Assembly (NCBI GenBank): GCA_947492375.1
Contig: CANLMI010000002.1
Location: 435,529 to 499,528 of the forward strand
Direction of reading: 5' to 3'
Length of the DNA: 64,000 bases
DNA from: an uncultured Kordiimonas sp.
GTDB taxonomy: Bacteria; Pseudomonadota; Alphaproteobacteria; Sphingomonadales; Kordiimonadaceae
Shown here one piece after another: positions 41,568 to 45,361 of the stretch (position 1 is its first letter; the number at the start of each line of letters is the position of its first letter). The notes below the pieces were generated by a model. The model worked only from the letters and a program-made list of their open reading frames with translations. It had not been told where the DNA came from and ran no database searches. Both the position numbers and the translations under genes were made by a program.

Positions 41568-42953
41568 ATGAAACATCTAATCATATTTATTATTTTCTAT
41601 CTGCTATTTCCGTTACACTCTAAAGCTTATACACAACAAGCAGAAAACCCTGAATATCCAGCGGTATTATCTATGCGTGATAGGGCTATCATTCAAGATA
41701 ACTGGCTATACTACCGCCTCAACACAATCATACCCAACTTAATGCGTAAAAATAACGTAGATATGTGGGTCTTGATTGCCCGCGAATATAACGAAGACCC
41801 CGTAATATCGACTATGCTCCCAGCAACATGGTTTGCCTCTAGGCGGCGTACAATTTTGGTATTTCATGACCGAGGCGAAGAAAATGGCGGTGTAGAACGG
41901 TTTGCGATCAGCCGATATGCCCTTCAGGGTGTCAATGGACAAAAGCTCTTCCCTGCAAAATGGAATCCTGAGAAAGAACCCGACCAATGGAAACGCCTTC
42001 GTACCTTGATTGAAGAACGAAACCCGAAAGTAATAGCTGTTAATAGCTCAAACACGTTTGCCCTTGCCGATGGCATTAGCCATTCACAACATCAGGCATT
42101 ATTTGATACCCTACCTGATCAATTGAAAGGCCGGACCCAAAGCCATGACGCCTTGGCAATTGGTTGGCTTGAAACACGCACGAAACCAGAAATGGATAGG
42201 TACGGGGAAATTGTTCAGCTTGCACATGCAATTATAGCGGAGGGTTTTTCCGAGAGTGTTATAACTCCCGGCATTACAAGCGCAGCTGACGTTTCATGGT
42301 GGTACCGGGATAAGATCAGGTCTTTGGGCCTTCAAACGTGGTTTCACCCTTCTGTCTCTATACAGCGCGCAAAAAGGCTTGCCGACGGCCAATCCTTTCC
42401 AGAATTATTCTCAGGCGCCAATCAAAGCATCATCCAAAAAGGTGACGTCATTCATGTTGATTTTGGTATTACATACTTAGGTCTCAATACCGATACTCAA
42501 CATCATGGTTATATCTTGCGAAACAGAGAAAAAGATGCACCTGAAGGACTAAAAAAAGCACTGGCTACAGGTAATAGATTACAGGATATTCTGGTTAGTC
42601 ATTATAAAGCTGGTCGCAGCGGCAATCAGGCACTAAAACTAACTCGTACACAAGCGATATCCGAAGGCATTAATCCAAGCGTATATACTCACCCAATTGG
42701 CTATCACGGTCACGGCGCAGGGGCTACAATTGGCCTATGGGATCAGCAAGGCGGGGTAAAAGGCCGAGGTGATTATCCAATCAATAGCAATACAGCATGG
42801 TCTATCGAATTATCTATCCTGCAAAATATTCCTGAATGGAATAACCAAGAAATCCGAATAATGCTTGAAGAAGACGGTTACTTCAACGGTCGCGATTTTT
42901 ATTACATAGATGGACGCCAGAAAAGCTTTCACCTTATATCGCATAGTGAATAA
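41568..42953 (+). CDS. Exported M24-family metallopeptidase (Xaa-Pro aminopeptidase-like)
   Basis: A 461-aa protein with a signal peptide (about 1-20) and a pita-bread M24 domain. All five metal ligands are visible: Asp in IHVDFGI, Asp in GLNTDTQ eleven residues later, His in GYHGHGAG, Glu in WSIELSI and Glu in IRIMLEEDGYF. The N-terminal half resembles the creatinase-like N-domain. It would remove N-terminal residues, usually before proline, in the periplasm. The ribosome-binding site is weak, but the gene begins seven bases after the MAPEG stop, so coupling is likely. A terminator follows at 42960-42995. Confidence 0.85.
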   Translation: MKHLIIFIIFYLLFPLHSKAYTQQAENPEYPAVLSMRDRAIIQDNWLYYRLNTIIPNLMRKNNVDMWVLIAREYNEDPVISTMLPATWFASRRRTILVFHDRGEENGGVERFAISRYALQGVNGQKLFPAKWNPEKEPDQWKRLRTLIEERNPKVIAVNSSNTFALADGISHSQHQALFDTLPDQLKGRTQSHDALAIGWLETRTKPEMDRYGEIVQLAHAIIAEGFSESVITPGITSAADVSWWYRDKIRSLGLQTWFHPSVSIQRAKRLADGQSFPELFSGANQSIIQKGDVIHVDFGITYLGLNTDTQHHGYILRNREKDAPEGLKKALATGNRLQDILVSHYKAGRSGNQALKLTRTQAISEGINPSVYTHPIGYHGHGAGATIGLWDQQGGVKGRGDYPINSNTAWSIELSILQNIPEWNNQEIRIMLEEDGYFNGRDFYYIDGRQKSFHLISHSE

Positions 42954-42959
42954 TAATAT

Positions 42960-42995
42960 AACTGGGCTTAAGTAGCTATTTACCAAGGCCCAGTT
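42960..42995 (+). terminator. Terminator after the M24 peptidase gene
   Basis: An 8-bp stem (42960-42967 with 42988-42995) is followed by TTCTTTG. The loop is about 20 nt. It starts seven bases after the stop codon. Confidence 0.65.
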
Positions 42996-43229
42996 TCTTT
43001 GCGTAAGTCAGTTTTCTTTGCCTGAGAAAGATATCATATCGCTGAATTAAAGCTTTATATTTTACGTGACGAACCACCCCTTGAATAGTTCAAGTCTAGC
43101 CGCATAGCTTAGTATGACCAATACAATAGATAGTTGCCGATGCGTAATTTCGTCACCCCTGCGCAATTATGCCATATTGAACCTTCTTAATTATATTGCA
43201 TATTGTTGGTATATGACTGGAGATGAACC

Positions 43230-43901
43230 ATGCAAGAAACAGCACAAAGTAAACTCGTATCAGAATCAAATATTAACATCCATATCAAGCCTGAAGGCTT
43301 CACGGACCATATTGCGTATGGGTTTGTGAAACTACTCAGATTTATAGCGGACAGTTTCTTTGCAAAACGCTATGGCCACAGAGCCGTAGTGCTTGAAACA
43401 GTTGCCGCTGTACCAGGTATGGTCGCGGGCCTCCTACAGCATTTGAAATGTTTACGTCATATTCGTGATGATGAAGGGTGGATACGCGAGTTACTGGACG
43501 AAGCAGAAAATAAACGCATGCATTTAATGACATTTATCGAAGTTGCAAAACCAACCTGGTTTGAACGCATGATTATCATGACCACCCAGTTAATCTTCTA
43601 TAATGTATATTTCTTTCTTTATCTTTTTTCCTCAAAATTGGCGCACCGGATAGTAGGGTATTTTGAAGAAGAAGCCGTTATAAGCTATACACAATACCTC
43701 GCTGAAATCGACGAAGAACGACATCCTAATATTGCTGCACCCGCCATTGCTATTGAATATTGGAATCTGGAAAAAACAGCAACTTTACGAGATGTAATCA
43801 TTGCAGTTCGTGCTGACGAAGCCGGCCACCGCGACCGAAACCATTACTTTGCAGACACGCTTCGTGACGGCAAGAAACCTCTAGGTAAAATTGGCATCTA
43901 A
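43230..43901 (+). CDS. Alternative oxidase homologue with an altered iron ligand
   Basis: A 223-aa AOX-family protein. AOX is a membrane-bound di-iron ubiquinol oxidase that reduces oxygen without pumping protons. Recognised motifs are LETVAAVPGMVAG (Glu56), the helix-2 motif read here as ENKRMHLM (Lys95, His98), YFEEEAVISYT (Glu146-148) and RADEAGH (Glu197, His200). In known AOX the second motif is NERMH, where the Glu three residues before His binds iron; here that codon is AAA (Lys). All other ligands are in place. GGAGA precedes the ATG. The gene stands alone between a terminator and pmbA. Confidence 0.85.
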   Translation: MQETAQSKLVSESNINIHIKPEGFTDHIAYGFVKLLRFIADSFFAKRYGHRAVVLETVAAVPGMVAGLLQHLKCLRHIRDDEGWIRELLDEAENKRMHLMTFIEVAKPTWFERMIIMTTQLIFYNVYFFLYLFSSKLAHRIVGYFEEEAVISYTQYLAEIDEERHPNIAAPAIAIEYWNLEKTATLRDVIIAVRADEAGHRDRNHYFADTLRDGKKPLGKIGI

Positions 43902-44005
43902 GAACCAACAACTATAAACCTAAAAAATTATATAATCCTGGTTGAATGACACAGGATTATATGGCTTATTGAAGAGTATAAAAACTATATAAGCTTGGAC
44001 ATTCT

Positions 44006-45361
44006 ATGGCATCCGATGACATATCTATTAACTCTCTTGATATCCTTGAATACCTTATTGAAAATGCCATAAAAGCCGGGGCTGACGCTGCTGATGCTGT
44101 TGCAATTGACGCACATTCAAAAAGCATATCCTGGCGTAATGACCGGTTAGAAGATACAGACAGTTCAGAAATAGAAGACATCGGCTTAAGAGTATTTATT
44201 GGCCAGAAACAGGCAATAGTATCAACAAGCGACCGTTCAAACGACAATCTCAATCAACTAGTCGCACGAACCATTGAAATGGCCCGCGCAGTTCCAGAAG
44301 ATGAATATTGCGGCCTTGCCCCAGAAGAGGCCATCCATAGAAGCGACTTTGCTGAACTGGATTTATATGACGACACTCAAATTTCAGTAAGTCAACTTGC
44401 AGAGCTGTCAGCTCGTGCTGAAACATCAGCCAGATCAGTTGAAGGCGTTACAAACTCCGACGGTGCGGGAGCAAGCGCCAGCAGATACGGACTTACCTTA
44501 CTTACATCGCATGGCTTTGTCGGTTATTCCCGAGGTAGCAGCTTTTCTCTTTCCGTCTCAGCTATTGCTGGTGAAGGCACTGGCATGGAGCGTGATTATG
44601 ACTATACAAGCGCAAGGCATTTCGTTGATTTAAAAGCTCCTGAAACTGTAGGAAGTACAGCAGGCGGACGGGCAGCAGTCAGGCTAAATCCAATAAAAAT
44701 TGAAAGCGGTAGCAAACCTGTTGTCTTTGCGCCTCGTGTTTCGAACAGTTTATTGGGGCACTTTTCTGGAGCCATTAACGGTACAAGCATTGCCCGAGGC
44801 ACCAGTTTTCTCAAAGACATGATGGGCGAACAGGTTTTCAACAATAATGTAGCAATTATTGATGACCCCCTTATGCAGCGAGGATTAAAGTCCAGACTAT
44901 TCGACGGCGAAGGTGTGACCGTACAAAAATGTAATTTAATCGAAAATGGCACACTCCAAACTTGGATGCTTAATAGCGCAACAGCCAAACAACTTGGCCT
45001 GAATGTTACAGGCCATGCAAGTCGCTCAAGTTCGTCAACACCAGGTATCACAACAAGTAACCTCTATATGGCACCTGGCACACTTAGCCCGCAAGAACTG
45101 ATGGCCGATATCAAAGACGGTGTATATATCACTGAATTGATAGGCATGGGAGTTAACCCAGTAACTGGTGATTACAGTCGCGGCGCCGCCGGCTTCTTGA
45201 TAAAAGATGGCCAAATTGCAGAAAGCGTTAGTGAAATAACAATTGCCGGTAATCTTAAGGAAATGTTCAGGCATCTTGTGCCAGCATCAGATTTGAACTT
45301 TATATATGGCAGCAACGCACCAACAATTCGTATAGATGGAATGACCATTGCCGGTGCATAA
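44006..45361 (+). CDS. pmbA: TldE/PmbA, subunit of the TldD/E metalloprotease
   Basis: A 451-aa protein of the PmbA/TldE family, the non-catalytic partner of TldD in a cytoplasmic protease that trims peptides such as microcin and antitoxin precursors. Recognised parts are the VEGVTNSDGAGASAS stretch near 147-161, the conserved GFLIKDGQIAESVSEITIAG near 396-415, and the ending LNFIYGSNAPTIRIDGMTI. No HExxxH zinc motif is present, as expected for TldE. tldD is not in the window. The cysQ-like gene starts 32 bp after its stop in the same direction. Confidence 0.9.
   Translation: MASDDISINSLDILEYLIENAIKAGADAADAVAIDAHSKSISWRNDRLEDTDSSEIEDIGLRVFIGQKQAIVSTSDRSNDNLNQLVARTIEMARAVPEDEYCGLAPEEAIHRSDFAELDLYDDTQISVSQLAELSARAETSARSVEGVTNSDGAGASASRYGLTLLTSHGFVGYSRGSSFSLSVSAIAGEGTGMERDYDYTSARHFVDLKAPETVGSTAGGRAAVRLNPIKIESGSKPVVFAPRVSNSLLGHFSGAINGTSIARGTSFLKDMMGEQVFNNNVAIIDDPLMQRGLKSRLFDGEGVTVQKCNLIENGTLQTWMLNSATAKQLGLNVTGHASRSSSSTPGITTSNLYMAPGTLSPQELMADIKDGVYITELIGMGVNPVTGDYSRGAAGFLIKDGQIAESVSEITIAGNLKEMFRHLVPASDLNFIYGSNAPTIRIDGMTIAGA

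Follow-up and report, generated by a model that had tools for sequence, protein, structure and literature searches.

The window considered here, a stretch of 64,000 nucleotides, carries on its forward strand an open reading frame for an alternative oxidase (AOX; gene aox), 223 amino acids long and located at positions 43230 to 43901. The frame begins with ATG, with GGAG just 5' of it, and contains no internal stop codon. Enzymes of this kind oxidize quinol without pumping protons. The identification draws on Pfam, phmmer, an AlphaFold2 model, and Foldseek. The protein matches profile PF01786 with 273.1 bits against a curated cut-off of 22.7 (E 2.1e-81), matches none of the NCBIfam families, and has trypanosome AOX as its closest solved relatives (E 3e-52 to 6e-52). 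The AlphaFold2 model (mean pLDDT 78.1, pTM 0.77) was built on an alignment of 47 AOX relatives and is insensitive to a single residue. Its best Foldseek match is 3vv9_A (TM 0.84 by query length), and the PDB chains it matches at E <= 0.001, 14 in all, are without exception AOX of trypanosomes, so that the modelled protein, compared with the PDB, has the AOX fold. Placement of the genome in the Kordiimonadaceae is supported by the relatives found. A scan of positions 42940 to 44020 for promoters and terminators gave four and one sites, respectively, about the level of shuffled sequence (3.6 and 0.9).

Lysine 95 and the other active-site residues

The portions of the literature drawn on here give the diiron ligands of AOX, in the numbering of the Trypanosoma brucei enzyme (TbAOX), as E123, E162, E213, and E266, along with H165 and H269 (PMC4682143, PMC6213860), and describe Y220 as redox-active (PMC4682143). 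The phmmer alignment of the window AOX with TbAOX (3vv9) is free of gaps over residues 51 to 163 of the query, with residue 111 matching TbAOX 178, and therefore residue 95 corresponds to TbAOX 162. That residue is lysine (codon AAA, forward-strand positions 43512 to 43514), within the sequence AENKRMHLMTF. The earlier note had read NKRMH, with codon AAA, where AOX has NERMH, and the alignment bears this out. It had also judged the remaining ligands to be intact, and so they are. Glu56 (TbAOX E123; 43395 to 43397), Glu146 (E213; 43665 to 43667), and Glu197 (E266; 43818 to 43820) supply the other three ligand glutamates; His98 (H165; 43521 to 43523) and His200 (H269; 43827 to 43829) are both present, as is the redox tyrosine, Tyr153 (Y220; 43686 to 43688), all on the forward strand. 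Two one-residue gaps in the alignment precede Glu197 and His200. Judged by its sequence, the protein is a member of the AOX family by descent that lacks the full catalytic set, keeping three of four glutamates and two of two histidines.

Residues around the site align one to one with those of T. brucei AOX (3vv9 and others), which has the same fold and differs in having E162 where the window protein has lysine and G230 where it has glutamate. Still closer are the AOX of Kordiimonas laminariae (L017, apparently the same as L003 of genome G011) and that of its close relative G009 (L002), with about 81% identity over 204 residues and the same frame of ligands. They form a supported sister group of the window AOX in the tree (98/91), but they have glutamate at column 95 and glycine at column 163, and their genes have other neighbors.

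On the grounds of charge and geometry, a positive lysine where a ligating carboxylate belongs should prevent the diiron center from assembling, leaving a protein without iron or activity. Provided that the base is real, it is highly probable that loss of the ligand makes the protein inactive. The cited portion of one paper calls a mutation at any single one of the six active-site residues of AOX "extremely detrimental" (PMC6213860), and in Ciona AOX, as reported in the part of the study used here, changing four of the six to alanine, including the equivalent of E162, gave a protein that was stably expressed and inactive (PMC4682143). No replacement by lysine at the E162 position is described in the publications consulted here. 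Nor did a literature search of limited depth, taking in few subscription journals, find a natural bacterial AOX that had lost a ligand. An AOX short of ligands does have a parallel in print, in the "AOX-like" proteins of wheat. These isoforms are natural members of the AOX family without the ligand glutamate, like the window AOX, and their authors, in the parts cited, assume low or no activity (PMC6075773, PMC6213860). As described there, the wheat isoforms miss whole motifs (LETVAA, LEEEA, or RADEAHH), whereas the window AOX misses one residue.

Against inactivation, the frame is open, the remaining active-site residues are unchanged, and the evolutionary rate (see below) shows no significant excess. 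It is conceivable, though distinctly improbable, that the enzyme is still active, with Glu91, less likely Glu93, or water replacing the lost ligand, or with a deprotonated lysine binding metal. In its favor, the other ligands, the redox tyrosine, and the fold are all kept, and the rate excess is not significant. However, relatives carry Glu91 and Glu93 (or Asp) alongside Glu95, so neither residue looks like a special adaptation, and published tests of the six residues report, in the parts seen, severe or complete loss of activity, though not with lysine. The earlier note had proposed Glu93 as a substitute ligand. In the model, Glu93 and Lys95 lie on one helix (residues 84 to 106), and in relatives an acidic residue at 93 (Glu or Asp) accompanies Glu95. 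Two residues off on the same helix, Glu93 should point away, an orientation taken from helix geometry rather than from coordinates, and is an unlikely replacement. Glu91, one helix turn from Lys95, would be better placed.

The earlier note's further idea of a new role for the protein, for which no supporting evidence was found, has a precedent in class Ie ribonucleotide reductase R2 (R2e). Proteins related to R2e hold two metals by means of carboxylates, but R2e itself has other residues at three metal-binding glutamates that are strictly conserved elsewhere, lysine at one of them, and is active, according to the portion of the study considered, which counts 275 QSK and 128 VPK sequences (PMC11846895). 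Perhaps the window AOX has likewise been recruited elsewhere, for example to metal-free, tyrosine-based chemistry; it does keep the redox tyrosine, and R2e works with lysine at a former ligand place. But R2e is not an AOX, has lost three glutamates, and is conserved in hundreds of sequences and shown to be active, whereas the window AOX has lost one of four in one genome, far from the class Ie pattern of several ligands replaced as a set conserved among genomes. No conserved partner gene appears among the five neighboring ORFs tested, and recruitment is hardly credible. It is very unlikely, too, that the protein works as an AOX with lysine through a mono-iron, re-ligated, or metal-free tyrosine site, a step that would be akin, by analogy, to the one taken by R2e.

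Lysine 95 among relatives and constraint on the gene

Column 95 is glutamate in every one of the 153 distinct relatives compared, which makes lysine private to the window genome among them. Those relatives come from 169 loci: the best 80 of 530 AOX-encoding stretches from a named genome collection, together with matches in close relatives (16 of 59 genomes, counting the window's own) and in the order (84 of 396, counted likewise). The named collection was searched with six peptides, one of them the Lys-bearing motif, so variants with lysine were favored rather than missed. Dropped from the 169 were the window's own two copies (L001 and L169), 10 sequences already counted, and four loci (L016, L166, L167, and L168) covering the stretch only in part; of the last, only L166 reaches position 95, where it has glutamate. 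The 153 are distinct as sequences, while the same genome may recur across two collections, and 22 plasmid records with an AOX match stand outside the counts of ligand columns. Three of the incomplete loci (L166, L167, and L168, on contigs C2, C77, and C12) are pieces of the aox of G332, which is split at contig ends, with its 3' part ending two contigs, probably because a repeat interrupted the assembly.

A search of 385 genomes of the class for the motif with codon 95 left free found 29 places in 28 genomes. All 28 places outside the window read GAA or GAG; G032 and G038 contribute to the 153 as well. The exact Lys-bearing motif occurs in one of the 385, the window's own genome, and is absent from the 384 others and from the viral contigs searched. 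Ten relatives whose codon at column 95 was inspected have GAG or GAA. The earlier note had reasoned that glutamate in all close homologs would make the lysine an error or a strain mutation, and the alignment with homologs, now run, finds glutamate in all those compared. Of these, the recent mutation that it had thought possible is favored, with glutamate in 153 of 153 distinct relatives and 28 of 28 motif places.

One way to restore glutamate without any change in DNA, A-to-I RNA editing of the lysine codon, was considered and seems unlikely. TadA deaminates in the context TACG, which the context of this base, T-A-A, does not fit.

The window AOX has a second odd residue, also private to it. 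Codon 163 (GAA, forward-strand positions 43716 to 43718) encodes glutamate in place of a nearly invariant glycine (TbAOX G230), as judged from relatives and the 3vv9 alignment. This position, directly past the helix formed by residues 135 to 161 of the model, is glycine in all but one of the 153 relatives (152); L111 instead has arginine there, with glycine one place earlier. When only columns identical in all other sequences are counted, the window AOX has one private change, E95K; such changes are absent from 148 of the 154 sequences, single in five (the window's included), and double in one. On a looser count, over columns more than 97% conserved in 88 relatives, the window AOX has two odd changes, as do two others, and one has three. 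The number is thus unusual, not unique, and because two relatives have two such changes and one has three, the replacement of Gly163, though it counts in favor of inactivation, proves little by itself. No compared sequence except the window's is changed at a metal ligand, histidine, or the tyrosine.

A fault in the data might also give a lysine seen once. By this account, the species has glutamate, and Lys95 is an error of base calling or assembly, or a mutation that arose only in culture. That lysine is known from one genome only, and that a single G-to-A step leads from the GAA of relatives to AAA, would fit. Against it, the assembly, in 23 contigs, is rated 100% complete and 0.02 contaminated, and the glutamate at 163 would require another, independent error, unless it is real on its own. 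An artefact of one of these kinds is unlikely, and a sequencing error in aox, while possible, is less likely than a recent inactivating mutation.

If the gene were decaying, one might look for acceleration. Relative-rate comparisons with L002 and L003, using five outgroups, assign 10 to 13 changes to the window AOX and 5 to 11 to the relative. The window count is the higher in 10 of 10 comparisons, which share data and so are not independent, and the excess does not reach significance (largest chi-square 2.9); a reading of decay from acceleration was rejected on that ground. The terminal branch of the window AOX has 0.36 changes per column, against a median of 0.29. Since synonymous sites are saturated relative to the nearest relatives (pS 0.84 to 0.86, pN 0.106), those comparisons give no dN/dS; between the pairs of relatives where it could be obtained, dN/dS is 0.02 to 0.07. 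We infer that the gene was under ordinary constraint through most of its separate history and that its death, if any, was recent.

Neighborhood of aox, its distribution, and the genome's other oxidases

The gene lies between two ORFs, in a stretch (positions 42938 to 43915) compared here with G001, a genome of the same genus in one contig, rated 100% complete. G001 has no aox match and no insert at that place. Its counterparts of the upstream and downstream ORFs (77% and 83% identical, respectively) are separated by about 255 bases that hold no aox, and about 170 of those bases (L172, 1246 to 1416) have no detected similarity to 42938 to 43915. In G009 and G011, aox is not beside the window's neighbor genes, and where aox occurs in other genomes, none of the five neighboring ORFs has a full counterpart next to it, although at most loci from the order the flanks amount to tens of bases.

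The window AOX is 81% identical to those of G009 and G011, which are themselves 76 to 78% identical to those of two Kordiimonadaceae of their own genus. With the downstream ORF, the pattern is reversed: 67 to 68% between the window and G009/G011, and 74 to 77% between G009/G011 and the two congeners. In the AOX tree the Kordiimonadaceae are scattered over more than one group, and starred branches force at least two changes. This tree and the pattern of identities make transfer of aox likely, and the sequences suggest that the gene was gained by transfer within the family rather than lost in G001.

Matches to aox are found in 15 of the 58 other close genomes; that of G026 is interrupted by an in-frame stop, and that of G028 is fragmentary. 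In G026 (L007), the stop is a TAA inside the conserved core, after the motif NERMHLMTF; that genome is in 260 contigs and rated 83% complete, and the stop codon could be an error. Inactivation of aox within the family may have occurred more than once.

The window genome also encodes cytochrome c oxidases of the aa3 type (CtaD, CoxB) and the cbb3 type (CcoN, CcoO), all above curated cut-offs. Cytochrome bd has no match in it, leaving AOX as the only quinol oxidase among those sought. A second, intact AOX that would make the window copy redundant was also looked for, and the genome has a single AOX match. Since no other quinol oxidase was found, loss of AOX might carry a cost.

Probable meaning of the substitution

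The protein is probably an ordinary accessory AOX in which a recent, private missense mutation, Glu to Lys, has inactivated a dispensable gene. That the gene can be dispensed with is suggested by its patchy occurrence in close genomes, its absence from G001, and the aa3 and cbb3 oxidases encoded alongside it. The change at the place of TbAOX 162 would have arisen recently and only in the lineage of the window genome, and its product would fold yet be unable to reduce oxygen, which would make this an inactive allele of recent origin. Of the readings offered in the earlier note, loss of oxidase activity fits best with homologs that all have glutamate; the lysine, its uniqueness among the sequences compared, the otherwise intact protein, the uneven spread of the gene, and the other oxidases are observed, whereas loss of iron and of activity is our deduction.

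The likely meaning is modest: an accessory gene in a bacterium of the Kordiimonadaceae has acquired a private mutation that probably inactivates it. Should the Lys95 protein prove active, it would contradict the claim that each of the six active-site residues of AOX is essential. If instead the mutation abolishes activity, it documents, on a small scale, the loss of an accessory oxidase by a bacterium, and a match to AOX alone would be an unsafe basis for inferring cyanide-resistant respiration.
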